NCBI GenBank assembly: GCA_019096065.1
Contig: JAGUCH010000007.1
Span: 4,858,501 to 4,922,500, forward strand
DNA length: 64,000 nt
Reading direction: 5' to 3'
Source: Paracyclopina nana
Lineage: Eukaryota > Arthropoda > Copepoda > Cyclopoida > Cyclopettidae
Shown piece by piece: positions 21,486 to 64,000 of this stretch. Below the pieces are notes generated by a model that searched no databases, had not been told where the DNA came from, and worked only from the letters and a program-made list of their open reading frames with translations. A program made the translations under genes and the position numbers. The number at the start of each line of letters is the position of its first letter. The first letter of the stretch is position 1.

Positions 21486-22236
21486 ATGCGAATCATCTAT
21501 TATGACTTGGAGACCACAGGTCTCAGCCCTGTGTCAGGATCCGATTCTGTGGAAATTGTGCAGATTGGAGCAACATCGACATATAGAGGAAGCCAAAATT
21601 CGTTTGCTTGTCACTTGGTTCCAACTGTTGCTATTGAGCCAAACGCCAAGAAAGTCCATGGGCTGACCAATCGACATTTGGAGAATATGCTTCAAAGGGG
21701 AGAAGCGTTCCACCAGAAGAGAGGCCTTGCCAAGTTTGTCTCCTATATCAATGAAATCATTGATGAAGATCACGAAGGCTTAGTGGTTCTTGTAAGTTTC
21801 ATGAGCTATTTCTACAATCTCATCATTTTTGCACTTTCCCCGTAATTTCAGGTGGCCCACAATAACTTCAATTTTGATTTTCCAATTCTTGAGAGCAACC
21901 TCATCAACTTTGGAGTCAACTTTCCCGAATCTTCAGTGGATTTATATGACTCGATGAATCTCATGAGAAGAGTTAAGGCAACAGGTAAAAATGAAATTAT
22001 GGCTGACATTTAAATATCATGCATCACTCATTTCAGATCTTAACATGACAAGCATCAGCTTGGATGCCTGTCTTGGCCACTTCTTTGATGATTACCAGGC
22101 TGTTCCCCATAATGCAGTGCATGATGCAAATGATGTTAGAAGAATCTCTGAGGAGGGAGCAAAGAGGCTCGGATATGGCTGCGGCCTCAGACACTTTTTG
22201 AAAGATGATTACAATCTTACCAAAGCATGGGTGTAA
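21486..22236 (+). CDS. DEDDh 3'-5' exonuclease, copy 1
   Basis: Three exons: 21486-21791, 21852-21984, 22037-22236; 212 aa. DnaQ/RNase T-type fold. Motif ExoI is YYDLETTG (D7, E9), ExoII has the aspartate in AHNNFNFDFPIL, and ExoIII is HNAVHDANDVRRI with the HxxxxD pair. The family hallmark VHGLTN is also present. All four acidic residues and the histidine are intact, so it should be an active metal-dependent 3'-5' nuclease. The protein is only the nuclease domain with no targeting or helicase region. It is the first of three tandem copies. Confidence 0.88.
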
Positions 22237-22919
22237 TCTTTGATTGCCTATTTCTTTAAAATGCATGAAAAACGCATGACTCATGCATAAAAAAGTATTT
22301 GGATCAATTTTTTTCGAAGCGACGCTTAGCAGAATAATACAAGTCGTACGTAGACAAAATTACAAAGCATTATGTAGCAAGATTTTTGCCAACTTTTTTT
22401 ATAACTACGAACTAGCTGCCTCGCTAGTAGCTTTTTTGTGATATGGCTTATGAGTGAGGAGTCGATTGGCCTTATATGTGTCATTAAACTGATCAAAGTC
22501 TAAACAGCTCTGAGCAGGATTTTCACCCTCAAGTCTTAAAAAAGCGAGCAGTTCTGAATATCACTTTTTAAGTCAACATTAAAGTGATAATTTCAATACC
22601 GCATAAGTGGAAGTTTCTAAAAAAGGAAATGTGAGTATTTTTAATGCTCGACTCGAATTTTGCTTTGAAAAAGCTCAGCTAATTTAACATTTGCTGAGGC
22701 GTATTGAATTTCAGTCTAGCATTGCACTTACGGAATAGATCAATTTGGATTGCAATTTTTACTCTCCTCATTAGCAACTTCATAAAAGCTGAAGCTTGCA
22801 AATTGATAGCTTTTTTTTGGTAAGAAGGATTTTTCAGGCTACATCGCCACAGTGTGCTCTTTGGACCATGTGAGATTTCTTAGCAGTTGCAGACTAGACA
22901 GTAGCTGGATCATCAAGAC
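22237..22919. other. Intergenic between exonuclease copies 1 and 2
   Basis: No gene seen. A pyrimidine tract ending in CAG at about 22840 resembles an acceptor for a 5' UTR intron of copy 2; copy 1 has one at the equivalent place. Confidence 0.45.
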
Positions 22920-23656
22920 ATGCGTATCATCTATTATGATTTGGAGACCACAGGTCTTGGCCCTGTTTCAGGAGCCGACTGCGTGGAAATTGTGCAAATT
23001 TGTGCGACAACAAGCTACAGAGGCACTAGAAAAATTTTTGAGTGCTACTTGGCTCCAACTGTAACGATTGACCAAGGAGCCACCAATACTCACGGGCTGA
23101 CTAACCGCAAACTGAGAAAAATGCTACAAAATGGAGAAGCTTCTTATCCACAGGATGGCCTACGTTATTTTGTCGATTTTATCGATCAAATCGTAGATGA
23201 AGATTCCCAGGGATCAGTTATTCTTGTAAGCTCAAAAAATCAGTTTTGCTTCATGTTTGACCCATTTTTTTAGGTGGCTCATAGAAATCATCAATTTGAT
23301 TTCCCCATTCTTGAGAGCAACCTCTTCAAATTTGGAGTCCCATTCCCTGAATCCTCAGTGGGTCTATTTGACTCTTTGGATCTTATGAAAAAAGTGAAAG
23401 CTGCTGGTAAAAAAAAGTATGTTAAATGAGCCCCGTTTTATCAATATTTATTTCAGAACCTACTTTGACGAGGATCAATTTGAATGCCTGCCTTAAATTC
23501 TTCTTTAAGGGAGAATGCCAGCAAACTCCCCATGATGCATGGCATGACGCAAATGATGTGAGACGAATTTCTGAGGCCGGAGCAAAAAAGCTTGGCTATG
23601 GCAGCCTCAGGCATTTTTTGCAGGAAAATAGCAACTATGTGAAGGAATGGTTGTAA
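22920..23656 (+). CDS. DEDDh 3'-5' exonuclease, copy 2
   Basis: Three exons: 22920-23225, 23274-23406, 23457-23656; 212 aa. Exon lengths (306, 133, 200) are identical to copy 1. ExoI is YYDLETTGLGP, ExoII lies in AHRNHQFDFPIL and ExoIII is HDAWHDANDVRRI; the catalytic set is complete. The start MRIIYYDLETTG is shared with copy 1, which supports both starts. Clear tandem duplicate of copy 1, transcribed in the same direction with about 680 bp between them. Confidence 0.88.
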
Positions 23657-24522
23657 TCCTTAAAAATAGCTGAAATGCAACCCCAGCATCTTGAGTCATT
23701 CAAAAAAGTTTCATAATTATGCGGACACACATATTTAATGTACTAGAGAAACAGCTGGAACACACATCATAAGAGAGATTAAAAAGGGGCTCAAATTGCT
23801 TGATACGTTCCATCTCAACAGTCTTTTTGCGTAGCTGTTACCAAGGTAGTTTCGGAAATAACGGCGCTACGGTTAGATACCGTCGACCAGAGCTGATTGA
23901 TTTGGTAGTTTTGTTCCAATCTGGCCATTTTTAAGGCATCAATTGTAAAAAGGATTCCGTTGGCATATTTAGGGGCAAATAAAATACAACTTTAAGGTAC
24001 GCATATAATATCTTTTAATGCAGTAAATACTTTCAATTTTGATGTAAAAGAAGCTGAAAAAATAGCAGATGCGCATGTTTTTGCCAGGTTCGAGGTAGGC
24101 GTGAGCATGCATTCTAAGCAAAGGAGAAGACGTTTTTCTTTTCACGCTACCTGGCAGCCGCGTATCACCAAGACTCTATGTTTAGAAGCCCTTTTTGCCA
24201 ATGAAAATAGGAAAATGTGCAACTAATAGCCATTGAAATGTTGCAAGCCACTCTAATGTTGCAAACGCTATTCGATTAAATATCTTATTTCTGCGAGTTA
24301 TTTTTACCCAGTTGATTCTTTGAAGCTCAAGCCGAGATTATTGTTCAATTTATCGCTTCGTCTGCAGTTCGATCCATCACTCAAATATTAATGCTTTAAA
24401 GGCGCTCCTCGTTCCCCAATATACAGAGAACTATCAAGTAACAACCAAGCAGTATTTCAGCACTTAATTTTAATTGAGCCTTTATCTTTTCTAACCAGGT
24501 ACATAATTAAGACTTGTTCAAG
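23657..24522. other. Intergenic between exonuclease copies 2 and 3
   Basis: No open frame of note, no RNA gene recognised. Confidence 0.5.
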
Positions 24523-25312
24523 ATGCGGGTGATATTCTACGATTTGGAGACTACGGGACTAAGACCCACTTCAGGCATTGCTTGTGCAGAAATCGTGCAA
24601 ATCGGGGCAATTTCCACCGATGCAGCAGGCACAGACAAAATATTCAATTGGTATATTTTACCAACCAATATGAGGGTTGAGGAAGATGCTTTCCGAGTGC
24701 ATGGGCTGTCAGATCAAGTTTTGGAGCAAAAGTTTCATAATGGAGAGGCTTTACTCACTGTGGAAGGTTTAGGCGATTTTATGACTTATATCGAAGCGAT
24801 TCTCAAGGAGGATCCGTATGTTGTGCTTGTGAGTAGTACACAATCATTGTTGACTATTCAATATCTTAGCATAATTTTTAGGTTGCACATAACAATCATA
24901 AATTTGACTTCCCAATCCTTGCCAACAACCTGATCAACCATCATATTCAATTTCCTTGTGGCTCTGTCAAACTGTTTGACTCTTTGGATCTAATGAAAAA
25001 AGTTCAAGCTTCTGGTAAGCACATTTTAGTGTTTCTTCAAATGTACTATAGCACAGCTTATGGAATGCTCAATTAATTTCAGATTCTTGCTTGACAAAGA
25101 TTAACCTCAATGCATGTCTAGATTTTTTCTTTGGTGTTAAACAGGCAAACCCTCATAATGCTCTTACTGATGCCAAATATGTCAAAAGAGTGTGTGATGC
25201 TGCTGCCAAGAAATTGGGCTATGTTGGGGGCCTCGAGTCTTTTCTGGTAAATAACCAGAATCTTATGAAAGAATGGCCTCACAGAGAGGCGTACAATCCT
25301 TTCAATCAATGA
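24523..25312 (+). CDS. DEDDh 3'-5' exonuclease, copy 3
   Basis: Three exons: 24523-24828, 24882-25014, 25083-25312; 222 aa. Exons 1 and 2 have the same lengths as in copies 1 and 2; exon 3 is 30 nt longer. ExoI is FYDLETTGLRP, ExoII AHNNHKFDFPIL and ExoIII the canonical HNALTDAKYVKR. VHGLSD replaces VHGLTN. It is more diverged than the other two, so the copy 1/copy 2 split is younger. AATAAA is at about 25404. Cellular substrate is unknown. Confidence 0.87.
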
Positions 25313-33639: not shown

Positions 33640-35871
33640 TTAAGGCAAGTTCTCATTGTCTTGATTTTGAGTCGGTCTGCGTCTTGACTTCTCCTCATAA
33701 TCGGCAAGACTTGATGGCAATCTGTTAAGTCGGGTAAAATCTGGTAAAACTTGGAAGAGCAAGGCTGACACAAGTGTTGTCACACCCATTATGATAATCA
33801 CAGTTGTGTTGAGGTGCAGGAATTGCAGCTCACCTAGCAAGATCCCAACGATGCCACCAATTCTGCTCAGGCCTGAGCAGATTCCCAGCAGTGATGACCT
33901 GGAACAAATTGTTCGGATTCAAGGGGAAGGAAAACTGTCAAGTCAAACATGTACCTGTATCTTTTTGGGAACTGCTCCACAGTAATGATCCATAAGATGG
34001 CAAATGCAGCTGCAGATATGAAGCTGTTGATGTGAGCAACATAGAGAGTTTTTCCATAGAAGCTTGATGAGACAGTTCCATTGGTAGCGTTTGGGCTGTA
34101 GGTCAGATTGGAATGGTCACTCTTTTCATCAGTGGATACCATGAACAAAAAGTAGGCAACTGCTGAGCACAACAGGAAAACGGAGTAAGGCAAGTTTTTC
34201 CTCTTCACAGTGCAGCATGTCAGCAGGGCCATAATTTCACCAATGGCTCCCAGGACTGCTGACAAGATGTCATTTTCAAACTTCTTGTGAGTGCTCGAGA
34301 TTTTGCACCAGCTATGCAGGAAACCATAAAATGTCACTCCCAATACAAACCAAGACAGCCCCAAGCTGATCAAGTTTGCATACAAAGTTGGGCATCCCCT
34401 GATGGCTTGCCAAATTGGAGGCTCTCCGTGATCAAGCCGCTCTTCATCGCCTCGTTGGATCTCTTCACTCCAGATGAGCTGCTCTAGGAAAAGGTATGTG
34501 GTGGCTATGACCACAGTGAGAAGGATCAGAACTGAAGACCACTCATTGCAAAAGTAGACAATGGCCAAAGCTATGAATCTGCTGAGGGACCAGGAAAGTT
34601 GGAAGCACAGAGCTGATACCAATCTGAACTTCCATTCTTGAACTTGATAGTCGGCCACCTCCACCAGATGGGTGATGACAAGCAGGTACACAGCACTTGA
34701 TGTGAGTGCCACGAAAAACCAGGCAAATGAGAAAATGTACACATTGCCTATAAATAATAATGATAAAAATGAGGATGTTGGTCCCAGATCATGAACATGA
34801 CTCACCTGCAGCTGCAGAAATCATTCCGCTGATGATGAGCACTTTGATGTTCAGCCTAAGCATCATCCAACGATCGTAGTGATCAGCCAGGAAGCCAAAG
34901 ATGAACTGACTGATGGCAAATCCGGCCATGAAGACCATTTTCAGCCACATCATGCAGCAAAAAGGCTCCTCGTGGAAGTGATAATGGCCTGGACCATGTG
35001 CATGACCTCCACCGTGTGCATGATGATGACTGCCATGTCCATGGTCATGAGAATGAGTGTGACCATGCACTACATCATGGTCATGGTTATGTTTCCTGCG
35101 AGCCTTCTTAGATGCTTTTGTCACATTGTCATGATCCATGTTGTTATTTTCCTCATGGTGATCATGATGATGGTCCTTTTTGTCATTATCATCATCATCA
35201 TGGTCATCAATTTGTGTCTCGTGTTTGTCTTGTTCATCATTGTCACCTTTTAGTGCGTCAGGTTCACCATCGCTAAGTTTTTTGACATCCTGATCAATAT
35301 CATGATTGTGATCATGATCATCGTCATCATGATCTTTGTCATCATGATCGTTGTCACCATGATCTTTGTCACCATGATCTTCATCATCATGATCATCACC
35401 TTCATGAACATGATCATCACCTTCATGAACATGATCATCCCTTCGTCGTCTCCTATGGTCGTGATCATGATGCATCAGATTAGGTCCATGATGATGATCA
35501 GCTTCATGATCATTGTCGTCATTTTCTCCATGCTTTTCGTCGCCATGCCCAGTGATGGCTTCCGGATCAAAGCTGTGCCACAGCGTGACTGTCAGTGGTT
35601 CGAAGCCAGCAAATATCAAATTGCCATCATTCGATTTGCCCACCATTTCAGGCTCGTAGGTGAGGAAAGGAGTGGCGAAGCTTTGAGCCAAGCATGCTGA
35701 CACCAGCAACGAAGTCGCCATCATCCACTGCACAACTTTGCCCTTTTTTCCATCTTGGCTCACTGACAGTTTTTTGCGCAGATGTTGCGAAAATTGATCA
35801 ATTTTCTGAGAACAACTCCTCACCACTCTTGAGTAGTCCACAAGGTTTGTTTCGGAGCTAGTTGACGGCAT
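33640..35871 (-). CDS. SLC22-like MFS transporter with a His/Asp-rich first loop
   Basis: Three exons on minus: 35871-34806, 34747-33955, 33898-33640; 705 aa. About twelve membrane segments; TM1 is near 47-66. MFS motif A follows TM2 as FGFLADHYDRWMM. The central loop (GDEERLDHGEPPIWQ) and KRYRYSSLLGICSG after a late helix fit SLC22/organic-ion carriers, which also have a large extracellular loop between TM1 and TM2. Here that loop is about 230 residues, of which 107-303 is almost pure His, Asp and Glu with repeats such as DDHVHEG and HDHGHGSHHH. Such tracts are typical of ZIP/ZnT zinc transporters, not of MFS carriers. Substrate is unknown; metal binding is an inference. Confidence 0.85.
35020..35520 (-). 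repeat. Imperfect CATGAT/CATCATGAT tract coding the His/Asp loop
   Basis: On the plus strand the segment is built of CATGATCAT-type units for about 500 bp. It translates in the minus frame to His/Asp runs with no stop. The exact 21-bp unit coding DDHVHEG is present twice in tandem (about 35395-35440), so slippage has enlarged the loop. Confidence 0.7.
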
Positions 35872-36881: not shown

Positions 36882-37988
36882 CTAGCATGTATGAAATGGG
36901 TTGGCAAAGTCGATAAATGTTGACGTGGTGACTGATGCAAAGCCCATTGGTCTTCCTGGCTCACACCATTGTGAACCTCCGAGTGAGTTGACTCCAACTT
37001 GGACATACTTTCCATTTTTGAGAGCCACAACAGGTCCTAGGTATGAGATCATGATCAAATATCAATAAAATTAATTTCTATAATAGTGCCTCCGTTGTCG
37101 CCATGACAAATTCCCCCATTTGCAAAGTTGGCGCAAAAATAATCCGGGTTGTCTTTGGTAGTGCATTCAGAGTCTTCGATTATTGAAACAGTTGCTTCCT
37201 TTAGCGTTAAACTCAACAAGTCGGAAGTATTTGTTGTCTTTCCCCAACCCATGGTAGTGACAATTGTGCCAGGACTCAGATCCTCCTCCGGATTCATTGA
37301 TAGACAAATTGGCTTGATGGTAGCACTACAAGAGGGTAATGAAGTGTTCAAGACCAATATGGCAAAATCCAAGTTGGAATCATCCGGAGGTCGGATTATT
37401 GAATCGACATAAAACTCATATGGAGCATTCTTTGCCACAGAGCCAGCATAGACAGTGAAAGCTGAGGGATGGAGTTGACCAGTGCAGTGATTGGCAGTCA
37501 AAATTTTATTGTGATAAATGATGCTTCCAGAGCAAAATCCAATGGAGCTTTGAATGCTTGCCATCCAAGGATACTTTGTGGAGCTCTTCACTTCCATTCC
37601 AAAAACAATTTTGTATGACTTTGACTCAGATTTGCTATGTGGGCAATCTGCATCAGCTGATTGACTTTCAATGGCTAGTTGGTTTTGGTGAGTGACAGAG
37701 TGGTTCACCATTGTCAAGGTGCCCTTAAAATCATGCTATATAATGTCCGTTTTGCTATTCAGTTTCATTTACCATGAGAACAAAGCTCAGGGAAGATCCA
37801 TTGAAATTGGTTGAAATTGGCTGAACATCTTGACCACTCAATGTGTTAAACAGTTTTTGCGATGTAGCTGAAAAAGCTGCCATTGCCATAATTACATTCT
37901 GTAACCTGCAAGGTTGACAATTTCTTAAACTTTCTCTACTTAAAAAAATTCTTACCAAAGCAACAAGAGTTCGAATAAGGATCATCAT
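36882..37988 (-). CDS. Chymotrypsin-fold serine protease homologue, catalytic Ser changed
   Basis: Four exons on minus: 37988-37956, 37898-37773, 37723-37090, 37036-36882; 315 aa. The first exon plus the start of the second give a signal peptide (MMILIRTLVAL...). The S1 domain begins at KIVFGMEVKSSTKYPWMAS. His is kept (ILTANHC) and Asp is kept (LDFAIL), but the serine motif reads GDNGGP instead of GDSGGP, so it should not cleave by the usual mechanism. The last intron begins with GC (GGAG|GCACTA), where the neighbouring paralogue has GT. Likely secreted, in hemolymph or gut; such pseudo-proteases act as cofactors or binding proteins in insects. Tandem with the next gene. Confidence 0.82.
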
Positions 37989-38249
37989 TTTCAATTTTCA
38001 GGTGAATGACATCAAATAAGAAATCTTGTTAAAGCATCTTGAGGGCAAAGAAACCGGAGCTTTCCCATTTATAATGCGCCTATGATAATTTATTGCTGCC
38101 ATAATTTGTAAAAATCTTCCAAGCTAATTGCTAATTCTAGCTTTTACATCATAATTGAAACTGAAGAGATTACGTTGTTTAGTACTTTTTAGTGCTGAAT
38201 ATGTCATTGCTTTTTTATATATTTTTGCTTCTACAAAGCAGAATGAGTG

Positions 38250-39458
38250 CTAGCAGGTCTGAAATGGCATGGCAAAGTCAATAAATGTGGAAGTTGTGGT
38301 CGATGCAAAGAACATTGGCTCTTGAGCTCCACACCCGTGATGGCTAGGAAATGTCGATATTCCCACTAGGACATACTTTCCATTTTGGAAAGCCACCACT
38401 GGGCCTAGAAAGCAGATTTCAAAATGAAGCAATAATATTTTTTCACATTGTCACATACCCCCATAATCTCCTAAACAGACTCCTCCATTGCCATAATGAG
38501 CGCAGAAATAATCCGGATCCACTCTCTTTGTTCTGCATTCGAAATCAGTTGTCACGGAGAGGTTGGCTTCTTTCACAACTGTTACTGTTCCCTCAATATT
38601 CGACTCATTATTCGTGCGTCCCCATCCCATAACCGTGACAATTGCTCCCGGACTCAGATCCTCAGCTGGAGTCATGGATAGGCAAATTGGCTTGATATTT
38701 GGAAGGCAAGTTGGTAAAGAGGTGTTAAGGTTCAAGATGGCAAAACCCAAGGTTGAATTTTTGGGAGGCGCCATAATTGAGCTGACATAATACTTATTTG
38801 GGACATAGAGTTTTGCAATAGATCCGACATACACCGCAACATTTTCAGCGGGGATCTCATTTCCCTCATTGTCATGCGTGCATACCACTGCAGTCAATAT
38901 TTTTGTGTAAGAAATGATGCTGCCAGCGCAAATGAAGCCATGGCTTAATACGCTTGCCATCCATGGATACTTTGTGGAGCTGTCAACTTCAGATCCACCG
39001 GAAATTTTGTACGACTTTGCATCGGAATTGTTCTGCGGACAATCTGCCTCATTTGGGCTACTGATATTCATATTGCTTTCCAATCCAGCTGATGTATTGT
39101 TAAACACAATCAATGAACCCTTGAAGTGAAAATTAATTATTCAAGAAGGTTTTTTATTTTTTGTTTCCATCAAACAGCAGCAATTTAAAAACCATAATTA
39201 TTTCCTTGGAAACTAACAATTTTTTGAAAAAGATATGTGAAATAAAATGCTTCTTACTGCAAATAGAATATCGTATGGGCTGTTTGTCATGTTGGATAAA
39301 AATGGGTTGATGCCAAACACACTAAATTGAGGAGCAGACTTGGCTGCAATTGCCATTATTGCCTAGAAGGAAAGCAAACAGAGGAGCTCTTAAAATAACT
39401 CTTTCATTTTATTGTTCGCAACGCCTACGGCTATAACCAAAGCTGTCAAGCACACCAT
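38250..39458 (-). CDS. Chymotrypsin-fold serine protease homologue, whole triad lost
   Basis: Four exons on minus: 39458-39429, 39362-39258, 39119-38459, 38404-38250; 316 aa. MVCLTALVIAAIMAIAA is a signal peptide split by the first intron, exactly as in the paralogue at 36.9-38.0 kb. The S1 domain starts KISGGSEVDSSTKYPWMAS. The histidine site reads LTAVVC (His lost), the aspartate site LGFAIL (Asp to Gly) and the serine site GDYGGP (Ser to Tyr). The fold-forming cysteines and the VMGWGRT segment remain, so the protein is probably kept for a non-catalytic role. Exon phases match the paralogue, confirming a tandem duplication. Confidence 0.85.
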
Positions 39459-56353: not shown

Positions 56354-56661
56354 ATGGATCCCAGCTTTGCCGTCGTCCAAATTTGAGACTTGCTATGTCT
56401 ACAGGATTTCCGAACCAGGATCAACATCATCTTAACAGCACTGGCAGCAACAGCAACACCACTGCAGCTAATCAAGGCCCAAATTATCTTGGCCAACTGG
56501 CAGCTGCCAATCAAGTTCAGAGGCTTGTTCAGAGGTACTTGTCATTGGCTCCTGTCTTCATTGGTGGACCTGCCAACACTTCCTTGGAGGCTCCACCACC
56601 ACCAACATCCAACACCAGCAACAACACTGATCCAATCCCAGCGAACCCTTTTCAAGATTTG
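56354..56661 (+). CDS. First coding exon of an unidentified Asn/Thr-rich protein (partial)
   Basis: The exon is bounded by an acceptor (TTTTTGCTACAG, ending 56353) and a donor (GATTTG|GTAAGG at 56661). ATG 56395 opens 89 codons with no stop: an Asn/Thr/Ser-rich head, an amphipathic helix (QVQRLVQRYLSLAPVF) and a Pro-rich end. A donor near 56049 suggests an upstream 5' UTR exon. No following exon on the plus strand can be matched before the window ends, and the transposon begins directly after it. The gene may continue past 64 kb, or have been cut by the insertion. Confidence 0.5.
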
Positions 56662-56869
56662 GTAAGGGTGTGAAAGCGCTTTTTTTTGGCTCCTTTTCTG
56701 CTTTCTTGGGTACCCCCAGAGGAAGCGTTTTAGTAACCGAATGAAAGTACTTTTTTTTTGGTTTCGTGAAAGTAATTTTTTAGTATTCGAATGGAAGTGA
56801 ATCTGACACGCTTTCCGAAAGCGAATTGGAAGCTGTGCTCAAATTCGTCAAAATCGTCAACTTTTTAAT

Positions 56870-56899
56870 GGTTTTCATGGAAGTCCTTCCATGAAAACC
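56870..56899 (+). repeat. Perfect palindrome, 14-bp arms
   Basis: GGTTTTCATGGAAG and its exact reverse complement, separated by 2 bp, near the presumed left end of the transposon. Confidence 0.85.
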
Positions 56900-57096
56900 G
56901 TAAGAAAGTATGGACTTTGTTATTTTTCAACTTTTTTGACGAAAACCATTTCCACCGCGTTCGCGCAAATTTTTAGCTGAAACAAGATGAAATGCTTGAA
57001 ATGCGATCCGAAACCTCACTAGAGCAAGAGTTGACCTCATCGGTATTAAAAGTATATAAGTTTTCCTAATTTGTTTATTAAACACTTTCAATTCTT

Positions 57097-60000
57097 CTAG
57101 GTGAAATATACATCATGTGGCACGGAAATGATAACACTTTCTGCAATTACTGCTTTGAAAATCGCTTTGGAACGAGGAACATCGACCAGTTCTTCATCGT
57201 AATGGTCAATCAGCCGAACCATGACCTTGCTCCAATCCAACTCTGGGCAGTCTGGCGTAATGAAGTCGGCAGTCATGATTTGAGTGCATTCCAAAGTTGT
57301 CTCATCATAGTTGTGGACAAAATAGAACTTCCCATCATCAGTTGCAATAATGTTGTCTACAGTTCTCTTGCGCGGGTGTGGCTTCAAACTTACTTTGTAA
57401 CCACAAGAGTGAGCATTCATGTTGCATATGAATGACTTCAACAAGCATTGTTTTGCGAAACTGAGTGTGTAGGGCTTGATTATTTTTTTCAGATAGCTGA
57501 AGAAGCTTTCAAAGGGCATTGCACTTATATCGGAGAGGGGCCCAATTTTGCGAATGTCCAAAAGGTGGCTAAATGTGTGGACATTAAAGCTGCACTGTTG
57601 AAGTCCAAAAACACGTTGGAAGGTGTCATAAAACCGAAAATGAGTTTCGCGAGCCAAGTTGTCGTTCATAATGTTTGAAAACACTTTGGATGGCATTAAA
57701 GCTGCATGAACAATCCATGCAAATCGATACCACGCTTTTCGTAGCCCACTCGGCCATTCGTTAAGTGCCTCGCCAAAGAATGTGAAGCCACAACACACAA
57801 TCGCAATGAATTCCGAGGCTTTTAAGTGCACAAAGTTATCTTTGACTGATCTAGGCGCACGAGGGAACTCTCGTGGTATATCCATGTTAACCCACTTTTC
57901 GTCGAATAACTTTGCTATTGAGACTCCTCTCGCAGTAGTGACTCCTTTTCCACTTCCAGCCTCCAAAATCAGCCTCATTAATTGGCGGCAGACTCCCAAT
58001 GAGATATTGTGCATTGGGTCAGGCACAAAGTCTTTGACAATGTCAAAGTATTCCAGGTCAAGGAGAGGGCTGTATCCTTTTATTCCACATCTTTTCTTCT
58101 TTGGAAGCCGCCTAGCATTTTCGCCAATAATTGTGGCAACTTGCAGCCAATCTTCGTGAGTTCTCTTTTCGCTGAGCATGGATGAGACGGGAAAGCCCAT
58201 CTTATTGAAGTCTTTCAACCATTCGCCCTTAACCTTGCACATCTCGCAGCTGCTGTAACCGTTGTGTTGCGTAAGGCACTTCATTCTTGCGCGCATCGGG
58301 CTATCGCCAATAAACTTTCTCACAATAAAGTTGTTGTCAAGACACTGCTGAAGCACTTCCGACGTCAAGTCCACAATGTCTGTGCTGTGTCCCTTACGAT
58401 AGACATGAATAGCAAGCGGCCAAACTTTACGACAAGGTTGAAACCTCACACACAAGACGCTCATCAAAGCATCCGATGACTTGCAGAGCGGTACACCGTC
58501 AAGAAAGAGATCCACATACTTTTTTCCATTCCATTCGCTTTCGAAGTCAGTTGGATGAATACTTCGGAAAAATGCATACAACGAGTTCATAGAAGTAGTT
58601 GACCATTCAGACAAGAGTAGGTACCGTGGTCGTGGATATTTCTTCCTAGGAAACGTGTTCCCCACATGGTGCATAACCTTTTTTTCTTTCAAATCGTAGA
58701 ATTCATAGGTCATAGAGATTTTCGGTATCCTTTTCTCAAAACGTTTCTTAATAGCTTTGAAGGAAAGCAATTTTCGATCCGTTAGGCTTCTCGCAAAGTT
58801 CCAAAACGCTTTTGAAGCTCTGTCAGTAACAGCAAGGATTGATGTGAGGAAGAAAAACCTTGCATACAAGGCCATGTCCCTTTCCTTTTGCGTCTCAAGC
58901 TCATTTTCCTCTTCCAAAGCTTCGCGGAAGTCTTTCAAAGTCGTGCCATGCATGTTGACTGCGTTGTCCTCACGCGGATCATCAATCCTTTGACTTTCCT
59001 CACCTATTTCATCCTCCGCATCATAGAAGACATCTTCTTCGTCTTCATCGAAACTGCTCTCACCCATCTCCATCTTTGACATGAGCTGTTCATTGTACGT
59101 AGCAACGTTTGCATCGAAATCCAATTGTGCAGCATCAACCAATACAGGCCTACGAGGATCAAAAAGATCCGACTGCAGTGAGCTATTGCTTTCGAAGCTA
59201 ATGTTGGCCAAAACGTCATCTCCATCACTTTCAGCCAATACTTTCTCCTCCGAGGCACTTTGACTTGGCACTTTAGGATCTTTGGAAGTGCTTTCAAAGC
59301 TTATATTTGCAAGCATGTCTTCTTCATCATTGGCTTGACCTTGAACAGTTGCTGGCTGATCCAACAGCATTGCTTGCTTGCTTGTCATTGGCTGCTGCGA
59401 ATCCATGTCAAGATTCACCGTTTCAGGAATGTCACGTTTTGTTGGAATTGCAATCAAATCATCTTCAGAATCGTTTTCAGAGCTTGACACTTGACGTCTT
59501 CTTTTGGCTTCACTTTCGCCAAAGTTGTCATCGAAATACGCACTTGGGCCTTCCAAACATTGCCCATCAGTTCCTTCAACGTACTCTTCCTCAGACACAT
59601 CCGGCGTTACATCATCGGGGCCGATGTCAGTGATGAGGGCCAATTTTCTTTTCAAGTTTTTACGAAGTGACTTCGCTGTTTTCTCTCTGATGTCGCCATC
59701 ACACACTTCGTCATTGTCATTGTGTGGAGGATCATTGACTGGAAGATCTTCCAAAGCATCATGGAAGTCATCGTTGTCCTCGTAGTCAGCTGCAATGTTG
59801 TCGAGATCAGAGATGACACGATCGATTAATGTAGGATCGTCTTTGTTGAACGGGCAAATCTTCAAATGAGGCCCGAAGAGATTTTCATCTCTCCTGAAAG
59901 GAAAGTTTGGTTAATAACAATATTAACACCTTCAATTAGCAAATACTCACATTTCGTCATTGAGCGTGCCTTGCTTTTGCTGCACGAGGCGCACTCTGGC

Positions 60001-60114
60001 CTCGCATCGTCTTTGCAACTCACGAAGCTGCCTTTCGGCCTCACGCACTTTTTTACGATGTCGGGCTTGTCGCACCGCTTCCTTTGATTTTGCGCCGACT
60101 TTTATTTTCGGCAT
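57097..60114 (-). CDS. Tnp2/CACTA-like transposase
   Basis: Two exons on minus: 60114-59951 and 59893-57097; 986 aa, apparently intact. The basic helical N-terminus (MPKIKVGAKSKEAVRQARHR) is followed by about 330 acidic residues, including a repeated LANISFES motif (about residues 249 and 283). The core has the three blocks of CACTA/EnSpm transposases: FLDGVPLCKSS (D520), GDSPMRARMKCL then CEMC (D585), and FVPDPMHNISLGVCRQLM (D680). A later FESFFSYLKK block follows. These supply the candidate DDE/D catalytic residues. The single intron lies in the N-terminal region. The intact frame suggests a young or active copy. Confidence 0.85.
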
Positions 60115-60731
60115 TTCGATTTTTTTCGCTGTAATGGCGTCGCTTTCAGCTGAACGAATAGTTGCCGTACGTAGCTGTTGCAGGAATGTTCTGGAAGAAG
60201 GGCGACGCGAAAACACTTTAAAAAATTAAAAATTACAATGATGCCAATAGGCATGCTTAAATGATTATAAAAATTACAATAAATGTAATGAAATAAATAT
60301 TTTTTATATTTAATTTAATTTTTACGTTTTCGTGTCGCCCCTTTAGCACAATTCATTGCCAAATTAAAATTCGAATTTATTCGAAAGTTTATCGTCATCT
60401 GGCCTATTTTATTAATGAATTAATTGTAATTCATCCTGCATTTGTGATTCCGAACACTTTTTTCCTTTTCGTAATTCAAAAAATCCAAAATATTTGGGTT
60501 CAAATAATTGACTTTCTTAGAAGCCGTTTAGAAGCATCTAGATTTTGGCGGAATTCCGCCAAATTGCTGCCCAAGCTAGCCGCGCCGGCCGAGTCTGCCC
60601 AAATTTTCCCGGAATTCAGCCAGCCAGCACAAACAACAGCAGTTAGTCCTGCGCTGGCTTCCAAACGGTTCGGACGTGTCTCAACGGAACCTGAAAATAT
60701 TTCGTCGTCGCCATTTTGAAATTTTTTCAAA
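60115..60731. promoter_or_regulatory. Divergent promoter region of the transposon
   Basis: 617 bp between the two ATGs. AT-rich core (60220-60480), no other frame supported. Likely drives both genes. Confidence 0.5.
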
Positions 60732-63700
60732 ATGCCTCCCAAGGCCGCAAAGACGCCAACAACGGGCCCCAAGGTGTACAATACGCCTCCCGACACCCCC
60801 GAAACGGTGTACGACCAGTACATCATCATCGCCCTGAAGGAGGATCCGCCGGTTTCGACGTTATCGGCCAATCAAGGATTTGGAAATCCGCGGAAGTCCT
60901 ACCGCGACATTTTGGGATTCTTCCCTTACTTGAAGATGAGCCCCGCTGCTCGTATGAAGATCGGCAAGTTCGTTTTGGATGAACGCGAAGGGCCGAGAGA
61001 ATTCTCGATTTTCTGCCGAGTCGAAACAAGTAAGTATTTCGCTTTCGATCCGCTTCTGCTGAAATCTAACGATAACCTTTTCTTGCAGGAATTGAGGAGC
61101 ACCGCGTGAGTACGCTAGTCGCCGACTTGAATAGTCGTTTCGCGGGTTTGGCCTTCGCTGACCGAGCCAAGCTTAAGATGACCTTGATCCGCAATTTCGG
61201 GGAGAAGTTCCTCAAGGATTGGTCCTACACTGAGCGCGACCCCATCAAGGGCAAAATCTTGTACACGAGGTGGAATCAAATTGGAACTCGTTCCAAAGCC
61301 ACCGAGAAGTTGCCCCAATCAGGGAAAAATGACACCGACGATGAATCAACGGACTCGGATGACGTCTTCATCAAGAAGAAGCGCGGGGCGACAAAACCCA
61401 TTTCGAGCTCGTCTTGCTCATCTGCAGGACCAACGCCGAAGAAGGACCAGGTACTATAAGTTGGTCTTATTCATTTAGTGTGGCTGTTTATACTTAACCA
61501 TTTTCCAGCCTCCAAAGGTTGTTGCCACTATGTTGGACAACCCGTTCTTCACAACTGGATCGAAGACGCCTGTGAAGAAGGACATCAGCGGTGGCAAGAA
61601 AACTGGCAAAGTCGCCGTGGCCGCTGGAAAGTCTCCCAAAGAGGTTGCGAAGCCTAAAGACGACAAGAAGCCGAAAAAGGCCGACTCCAAGAAGACGGGC
61701 AAGGCTGCTTCAGCTCGTACCAGCGGCAAAAGGAAACACGTTTCCGAAAGCGATTCGGACTCCGACAGCAGCGTTGAATATGTCGGCTCTGAAATCATCT
61801 GCCCGTCGCCAACCAAGAAACGCTTGGTTACTCCAAAGGCTGAGCAAATGGACACCTCCACGGGTAAGACCCCTGACGCGGATAAGGCTTCTCTGTCATC
61901 AGAAGCGACGGTGACCAACTACGAAGTACCAGTTGTTGTAAGTATATTGCCATTTGTAATTAAATGTGGCTTTCAATTGGCTTTTAATTGCAGTCCGAGT
62001 TCACTGAGGCGACTCTCATCACGGAGGATCACTTCGACGCCAAGATGAAGAACTTCCAGGAGCAATTTGTCACTTCTGTGTCAACTTCGGATGCTATGAA
62101 GCATTTGGTTCGCCAACAAGTTGAGGCTGTGTTCCTGGAGAGCATTGCGCCATTCATGAATGACCTCAAGTATGAGATCAAGGACGCTATCAAGGAGGAA
62201 GTTGGCAAAGTCTTGTCTGGCCAAGCAAATGTCGCCAAAAGGGCAGCTGTGACGGTAAGCAGTAATTAGTAACTTTCGAATTGCTTTTGATTGCAATTTG
62301 AGCACTTTGCAGAAACTACTTGAGGAAACAAGCGCGATGAAAGATGCCATTGCCGACTTTAGCGTCGAGCATGCTGCCATCAGGGTGGAAATTGGCAAGT
62401 TGCGTGAACATGAGGCGGACTTTCAATCGCGCTCCAATGGCATTTTGGCACGAATGTTGCCTTTTGAGTACATGGGCCCCGCTGCGGACATTTTTTTTGC
62501 GTCCCACTTTGTGCAGGAGAACATCATCCATTTCGTCAAGGATGAGTTGTCAAACTTGACTGACAAGGTGAATGTCAACATTGCGTTTGCTTTCACAAAC
62601 GCCTTCTTCACCCGTATGGCTCTTGCTCACTTGGTGTGGAAGCATCCTATCAGGTAATTGATTTGCGAAGCAATTTCGAATGCGAGTTGAGTTAATATTT
62701 TGCAAAATTGCTTATTCTTTAGCGAGGATCAGATGATGTACTACAAGAGGACTGTGCCGGAGCCTGTAGAGAGGATCGTCAAGACCATCATCATTCCTTA
62801 CGTGCAAAAGGAAATGGAGCTCCGCAATTCCAACCTGGTCATCGTTTGGAAGAAGATCCGGAAGATTATTAGTCGCCGATTCACCAACTCTCGGACCAAG
62901 ATGCTGGAATGGGCCTTCAAGAAAACATTCACTCCTGAGGAAGGCTTCGAGGCATTGTTCAATGTGGACAATGAGTTTTACCTCTACAATGAAGTAAGTA
63001 CATATTTAACTTCCGAATCGCTTCCACTTTGTAACGCGAATGTTTTCAGCATGCTGTTCCTCCTGTTGCCATTGATGACCAGGACGCTTACATTGAGAAG
63101 CTGACCAACAGCCGAAAGGAGGCCAAAACGGCACTGCTTGCTAGCCAAGACGACAAATGGGTCGATGGCGCAACTTTTCCATCAAGCGACAAGGTTTTCG
63201 ATGGCTTTCGAGGCAAGTCCTACACTCGAAAAGTGTTCAGCAAGTATGACGCCATCAAAATTATTGTGGCTGCTGCTGCTGCCAAGAAAATGGATGTGAC
63301 GGCTCTGACATGGGACGAGATCTCCAATGTTCCCGACGTAAGCTTGCTAATTTTTACTTGCTTAACTTTCATACTTATTCGTAAACGCTTCCGTAGTTGA
63401 AAGAAGTGTATGCCGATGTGCTGAATGACTACAAACATTCTTTGGACGACTTGGTCAGGGAGTTCCCGCACGACCCTGACTACATGATTAAGATCAAGTC
63501 GAATTCGAGCAGCGAAGAGCAAAGCACTGTGCACACGCCAAGGAAGGAGCAATCCAGGTCGAGCGATGATTCCAGCTCCAACAATGACGATGACGATGAG
63601 GTCGAGGAGGTTCTCACCCAGCAACCCAAAGAAGAACCAAAGGACAGCGAAAGTCGCGAAACCACTCCCCCAGTAAGCCCGTCTACCAAAAATAAGCCTT

Positions 63701-63991
63701 ACCTTTACTTTCAAAGCCCTTTTAATGGCTGCCAATTAGAAATTTGTAACATTTTCTAAAACAATTCACTTTTCTTTAACGTATGCAAAATTGTACGTTA
63801 TAGACTTTTTATTTACATTGAATGCAATGCAAGGCCGCTTTTAATTAAGATTCCTAACCCCTTTCGAACCTTTGCAGGACGCGACGGCTGAGCTTGTTGG
63901 TATTGCTGGTGCGAGTACCACGGATCCTAATGACATCAAGGAGCAGTTGGCGATTGAGCGCACCATCAAGAAGGCCGCCGCCAAGAAGTAA
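60732..63991 (+). CDS. Nine-exon Lys-rich protein, candidate transposon accessory factor
   Basis: Exons: 60732-61029, 61089-61450, 61509-61937, 61994-62254, 62313-62653, 62723-62993, 63050-63337, 63397-63672, 63878-63991; 879 aa, all GT-AG and in frame. The N-terminal 200 residues look folded (KVYNTPPDTPETVYDQYIII; WSYTERDPIKGKILYTRWNQ). A 170-residue Lys/Ser/Asp linker with nuclear-localisation-like runs (SKKTGKAASARTSGKRKH) follows. Next is a helical, coiled-coil-prone centre (about 365-480), then a second folded region with WKKIRKIISRRFTNSRTKML and WDEISNVPD. The end is an acidic tail and KKAAAKK. No known domain is recognised. The divergent pairing with the transposase suggests a TnpA-type DNA-binding partner, but a host gene is possible. 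Confidence 0.7.
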
Positions 63992-64000
63992 ATCAGCTCC

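Follow-up and report, generated by a model that had tools for sequence, protein, structure and literature searches.

A CACTA-like transposon in the copepod Paracyclopina nana with a divergently oriented second gene of no recognised family

Our analysis of a 64,000-nucleotide stretch of the Paracyclopina nana genome (hereafter the window; C7:4858501-4922500 in a 92-Mb, 10-contig genome) identifies a two-gene transposon that is bounded by terminal inverted repeats (TIRs) and spans 56637-64677, a length of 8,041 bp. Positions 56637-64000 lie within the window, and the last 677 bp fall past its end. A sequence-only reading of the window had proposed an intact two-gene element from 56700 to 64000; the element does look intact, and its start moves to 56637 and its end to 64677. 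We consider it probable that this is an autonomous, CACTA/CMC-like cut-and-paste element whose second protein, the partner, is a cofactor in transposition and likely a TnpA-like binder of subterminal repeats. The element itself is well supported; the function of the partner we infer.

The transposase gene lies on the minus strand. A 922-residue reading frame at 57097-59865 is open, and the spliced model extends it to 986 amino acids in two exons (57097..59893 and 59951..60114) separated by a 57-bp GT-AG intron (59894-59950). Exon 1 encodes a basic N-terminus, and the terminal stop is the only one in the model. Exon 2 carries D520, D585, C604, C607, H827, H831 and E850 (986-residue numbering), and this series of D, D, C-x2-C, H-x3-H and E is invariant in an alignment of 11 transposases with identity down to 30%. 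In a 20-row alignment the motifs are present in every row that reaches them; L017 and L018 are cut. Two D residues and an E, with C(2)C and H(3-4)H between the second D and the E, are the mark of the CMC/CMCT clade, and the available part of one survey gives the D, D, C2C, H3H, E pattern for EnSpm, Mirage, Chapaev, Transib and Plavaka (PMC12730594). Judging from these motifs, the protein is presumably a DDE transposase that cuts at the TIR.

Profile searches place the transposase in no library family. Transposase_21 (PF02992) gave no match up to E 10 in any of 11 transposases, in a HMMER search whose filters drop most weak matches, and neither the single protein nor the 11 members significantly matched any Pfam family. 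A profile search of the PDB likewise gave no match up to E 10. A genome search with the family PF02992 returned no match anywhere, controls included, and is uninformative, and an AlphaFold model of the transposase core built without an alignment reached a pLDDT of 36 and is unusable.

The partner gene (60732..63991, plus strand) is head to head with the transposase gene; the two point outward from start codons 617 bp apart. Its spliced model encodes 879 amino acids in nine exons (60732-61029, 61089-61450, 61509-61937, 61994-62254, 62313-62653, 62723-62993, 63050-63337, 63397-63672 and 63878-63991), and all introns are GT-AG. The models thereby bear out the sequence-only reading, which had described an open transposase and a long multi-exon gene of 879 codons, arranged outward at this distance. 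That reading had also seen folded-looking regions, a Lys-rich linker and an acidic tail in the partner and had recognised none of them, and we find the same layout. A conserved N-terminal domain, encoded by exon 1 (first half) and 61089..61315 on the plus strand (second half, ~aa 100-175), is followed by a linker rich in Lys, Ser and Thr (net charge +11, aa 236-345), then by the conserved core and finally by an acidic tail (net charge -13, aa 766-842). Constraint is highest in the core (aa 446-765, at 62240..63441 on the plus strand, introns included) and lowest in the linker and tail. Partner models in eight other elements are 839-914 aa long, and six are free of stops. Copies C1 and C4b, whose partner models are 99% identical to each other, have one stop each at a probable splice-model error, and the C4a model reads through one probable intron.

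We aligned the partner cores of 13 diverse copies (alignment A1), three taken from full models and the other 10 chosen from 20 further cores. The set excludes six cores with stops in the model (L043, L047, L052, L056, L058 and L060), L042, which likely contains an unspliced intron, and L049, L050 and L054, which by eye resemble the cores that were kept. Seventeen columns are invariant across the 13 copies, and the invariant polar residues (A1 numbering) include D61, H108, K124, R125, D198, N205, H207, R228, D288 and D295. Conservation of this kind would suit an enzymatic role in transposition, such as that of a nuclease or modifying enzyme, but invariant residues can also be structural and neither Pfam nor the PDB yielded a significant match to an enzyme family. 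We therefore regard an enzymatic partner as quite unlikely.

Domain searches with the partner gave little. Pfam searches with its exons, the whole protein, the 13 cores and six N-terminal domains produced nothing above curated cut-offs, and the best E over all Pfam searches, transposase and partner together, was 0.0056, which falls short of the curated cut-off. Profile searches of the PDB gave best E values of 0.32 and 0.28, which we judge to be chance. No recognised DNA-binding domain emerged from the Pfam searches. The partner has only three cysteines, all before aa 346, and a classical zinc finger is therefore unlikely. Myb gave no significant match (one member reached E 0.089), and BEN had no Pfam match. 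DUF4806 was considered and dropped: its match, at E 0.043-0.081, was confined to a single member and lay elsewhere in the core. By eye, the core looks BEN-like, and the hhalign alignment to five BEN sequences is best at that very place, with scores of 16.7-20.5 and probabilities of 0.8-2.9% over six master rows. For one master (score 20.3, 30 columns), none of 150 column shuffles reached the score; against three BEN sequences the probability was 1.1%. A BEN domain in the partner is suggestive as a lead only. Genome searches with PF10523 and PF16064 returned no matches, controls included, and are uninformative, and tblastn detected no relatives of either protein in viral contigs.

The ends of the element were set by comparison with its relatives. 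Nucleotide searches with each of the two genes turned up six additional sites carrying both, and in all seven two-gene copies compared (these six and the window copy) similarity starts and stops at a 16- to 17-bp inverted repeat, CCCAGCGAACCCTTTT(C). In the window copy the left TIR is CCCAGCGAACCCTTTTC (17 bp, 56637..56653, plus strand), and its counterpart ends at the equivalent of 64677, in stretch L021. The termini read CCCAGCG, and the TIR starts with CCC in each of the seven copies whose ends were set by the stop in similarity. The TIRs enclose both genes in all seven, and not the transposase alone. With up to one mismatch, the first 16 bases of the TIR have 64 matches in the genome, compared with two for the reversed control pattern. 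From the 64 we took 28 TIR pairs, leaving out nested outer ends, single ends and one 1.1-kb pair; 21 are 7.9-8.8 kb and seven are 1.3-1.6 kb long. These pairs were picked by the CCC-starting TIR and so carry no evidence on the CCC start itself.

A matching 2-bp flank, as expected of a target duplication, borders 24 of the 28 pairs. When flanks were re-paired as a control, a mean of 2.9 pairs matched, with a maximum of 11 in 10,000 re-pairings. Two of the four remaining pairs, the window copy and C7:2952627, show a 3-bp AAT match instead. In the window copy the duplication is ambiguous: it can be read either as 3-bp AAT or as 2 bp (AT/AA) with one mismatch, and the host frame is open only under the second reading. 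The search past the window end that the sequence-only reading had called for has in this way supplied both the TIRs and, at most of the 28 pairs, a short duplication. The seven 1.3-1.6 kb pairs (C1:1021944, C1:4514557, C1:9929337, C1:15140977, C1:17133239, C4:7519880 and C8:6330741) all have 2-bp duplications and are probably non-autonomous derivatives; one of them keeps a match to partner residues 70-99 (C1:4515257-4515346). Just inside the left TIR, the seven copies compared have a GTA, which is part of GGTAAG in the window copy (window 56662). This GTA is a possible splice donor, by which the element might be partly spliced from host transcripts.

Protein searches across the genome list at least 150 transposase loci and at least 126 partner loci. 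The transposase loci include 102 places added from a second search; the partner list comprises 100 stretches, one per locus, 25 added loci and the partner at L041, and omits the fragment in the short element at C1:4515257. A partner lies head to head on the 5' side of the transposase, within 9 kb, at 117 of the 150 listed transposase loci. A partner lies 5' on the same strand at none of the 150 and on the 3' side at five. Conversely, 117 of the 126 listed partner loci are paired with a head-to-head transposase within 9 kb and nine are unpaired. No partner was detected at 33 of the 150 listed loci, and the four of these that we opened all had one. In total, five loci chosen as apparently partnerless were opened (L041, already among the 117, and L102-L105), and each carries exons of a diverged partner, located and oriented as expected. 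Their best E values against a profile built from nine partner models were 1.6e-13, 6.3e-11, 1.1e-8, 1.1e-14 and 3.8e-9, respectively, and the same DNA reversed gave no match up to E 1. Apparent solo transposases are thus at least partly a limit of sensitivity. This back-to-back pairing at roughly a hundred places suggests that the machinery normally includes the second protein.

These counts bear on two further explanations of the gene pair. The first is that two unrelated elements were nested or fused at the window locus alone. A probable nested insertion does exist elsewhere, at C8:4375614, but the same head-to-head order recurs in 117 loci, with cores 1.6-4.8 kb apart, and we give this explanation next to no weight. 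The second is that the partner is a captured host gene or chance neighbour, or that the pair has been domesticated. The partner is indeed multi-exon and the window copy sits in a host gene, but both genes lie inside the TIRs in the seven assembled copies, 117 loci are paired, near-identical copies occur at different sites, and divergent copies have intron positions in common. We regard this second explanation as very improbable, and a partner with at least 126 listed loci is no single-copy gene.

The copies also look mobile, as judged from the 2-bp duplications at 24 of 28 TIR pairs and from two copies, on C1 and C4, with 99.2% identity across 8 kb. The C9 and C2 copies share 96.3% identity; between the window copy and its closest relative, silent sites are saturated. 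Many of the listed loci have an open transposase frame. Estimates of dN/dS are 0.06-0.20 for the transposase, computable in three of eight pairs, and 0.06-0.14 for the partner in five of eight, two of them near saturation, with silent sites saturated in the rest; these values show purifying selection on both genes. At C2:2564184-2587234 three same-facing copies of both genes follow one another every ~8.3 kb and seem to form a tandem array. At C8:4369012-4385476, the site of the probable nested insertion mentioned above, one element appears to lie inside or next to another member of its family, with a CT duplication.

In the window copy, the element interrupts a host exon (56395..56636, plus strand), and the open frame resumes to its right. 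The frame is that of an Asn/Ser/Gln-rich host gene, which runs into the left end and continues at the right flank (L021). Either this gene is broken in the assembly or the insertion is polymorphic. Elsewhere in the window we noted, by eye, three tandem exonuclease-like frames with MRIIYYDLETTGL-like starts (21486-24933) and two tandem frames resembling trypsin-like serine proteases (37055-39113). In a further frame (34789-35871), hydrophobic segments enclose a very long stretch rich in His and Asp, which by eye resembles a metal-transporter loop.

The sequence-only reading had taken the short introns as a possible sign of domestication, a view we do not retain, given copies that look mobile and introns that look ancestral. 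The eight closest elements agree in the position and phase of five partner introns, and L039, with a partner of 22% identity, has two of the five as well; because the partner models were fitted to the window protein, they are biased toward such agreement. That the modelled copies agree in intron position and phase makes the short introns probably an old, ancestral feature of the element. Intron-bearing transposase genes are common in plant CACTA elements, according to the part of the source at hand (PMC4158355).

The 617-bp region between the start codons (60115..60731) presumably serves as a shared bidirectional promoter. A region upstream of both genes would also suit a partner that acts as an anti-silencing or transcription factor, keeping the element expressed and taking no part in the cutting complex. 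The long Lys/Ser/Thr-rich linker and acidic tail fit such a role, and plant TnpA is itself described, in the portion of the report available, as acting on the element promoter (PMC1636069). The distribution of the motif GRAAGY points elsewhere. Counted on both strands, 11 sites lie in the left 350 bp (56657..57006) and eight in the right 350 bp, compared with a shuffle mean of 1.2 at either end and no shuffle in 200 reaching the observed count; four sites in 615 bp of the intergenic region are background density. The subterminal repeats that the sequence-only reading saw at the left flank are thus real and present at the right end too. Five window-group copies have 66 sites in 3,500 terminal bases and 178 in 30,948 interior bases. 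Three of 400 random patterns of the same shape scored as high as GRAAGY, all A/T-rich, and the near-identical copies C1 and C4b have no excess of GRAAGY at the left end. Repeats that crowd both outer ends, at background between the genes, favour a role for the partner at the ends, and we consider a purely regulatory partner rather unlikely.

Of the roles considered, a TnpA-like one fits the partner best, short of proof. On this reading, the two proteins would be made from one divergent promoter, and the partner would bind the subterminal repeats, within 350 bp of either end, and bring the transposase and the ends together in a transposition complex, as TnpA does in plants. The transposase would cut at the TIR.

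Other families differ from the window (W) group in their repeats. L040 has GAAAAT-type repeats, with 10 in 700 terminal bases compared with 1.6 expected from the interior (one shuffle in 500 reaches 10). The W group and L040 share the first 12 TIR bases at both ends and differ in repeat motif; their partners are 36% identical and their transposases 59%, so that the partner differs more. L041 is a distant relative, with 36% transposase identity and a 2-bp GA flank match. Its longest inverted repeat between flanks is CCCAACCAGAAAT, and neither GRAAGY nor GAAAAT is enriched at its ends. L039 showed no convincing TIR pair in the stretch examined. Across nine elements, a set that includes close pairs and one far outlier, transposase and partner protein distances are correlated (Mantel r 0.955; 0 of 5000 permutations), and two of six and one of six forks are supported in the trees. 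A conserved TIR read by the transposase, together with family-specific repeats read by the partner, would explain the two family comparisons. We offer more tentatively, as something a little short of probable, the broader proposal that a partner family absent from the libraries searched is a near-obligate second component throughout an animal CACTA-like lineage. In it, the transposase would read the conserved TIR and the fast-evolving partner the family-specific repeats, so that partner and repeats co-diverge and a single genome comes to hold many families that do not cross-mobilise.

As far as the sources at hand go, animal CACTA-like elements are characterised chiefly by ends and transposase, and a TnpA-like second protein has been proposed for SmTRC1. 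With 117 paired loci in one small genome, the partner alignment is deep enough to test, and the copies already supply natural chimeric combinations of ends and partners. Two-gene copies that are under selection might in addition yield a new animal transposition system.

Plant TnpA binds subterminal repeats. PIF/Harbinger elements, too, combine a transposase with a separate second protein, a Myb/SANT protein in Harbinger, and in this pairing they resemble the element described here; their transposase motifs and ends differ. Unlike the Harbinger protein, whose Myb/SANT domain is mentioned in the available part of one source (PMC12730594), the partner has no significant Myb match. The same source gives 5'-CA..TG termini for most of the CMC/CMCT clade, and these are absent here. 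Plant CACTA/En-Spm elements require two element proteins, and TnpD stabilises the binding of TnpA to DNA (PMC1636069, in the part available). A second gene and subterminal repeats are present here, and the partner is a candidate binder of those repeats. What sets the present element apart from the plant systems is that its termini are CCCAGCG and not CACTA, that 3-bp duplications occur in only two of 28 TIR pairs, that no significant domain match was found, and that its genes are divergent, whereas the plant proteins come from transcripts of one unit.

Animal TRC elements (transposons related to CACTA) and Spongebob of Hydra (listed with EnSpm-4N1_HM) are described as having CCC termini and 2-bp duplications, in the parts available of PMC1636069 and PMC4298943, respectively. 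Both features are found here, as in SmTRC1 of Schistosoma and the elements of Aedes and Tribolium. The TIRs of the Aedes (9.2 kb) and Hydra elements, CCCAGTCAAC and CCCAGCCAACATTGAC, are close to CCCAGCGAACCC here (PMC1636069; PMC4298943). The available part of the SmTRC1 study reports no similar protein in other TRC elements, and it proposed a TnpA-like role for the fast-evolving PrA and called for a test (PMC1636069). In SmTRC1 the extra proteins arise by alternative splicing (PMC1636069), whereas the partner here is a separate divergent gene at more than 100 loci. Ten types of CACTA element are tabulated for Daphnia pulex (PMC2884549). Among the titles and abstract starts of open-licence PMC articles, we found no animal CACTA element in which a conserved second gene is encoded separately and divergently; one may be present in Repbase. 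Because the transposase lacks the Transposase_21 match of the TRC/CACTA superfamily, we describe the element as working like TRC/CACTA elements and do not file it as a member. The element is a genuine two-gene transposon of a familiar broad kind: both genes are open, there are signs of mobility, and the second protein, unrecognised in Pfam and the PDB, accompanies the transposase at each locus looked at in detail.
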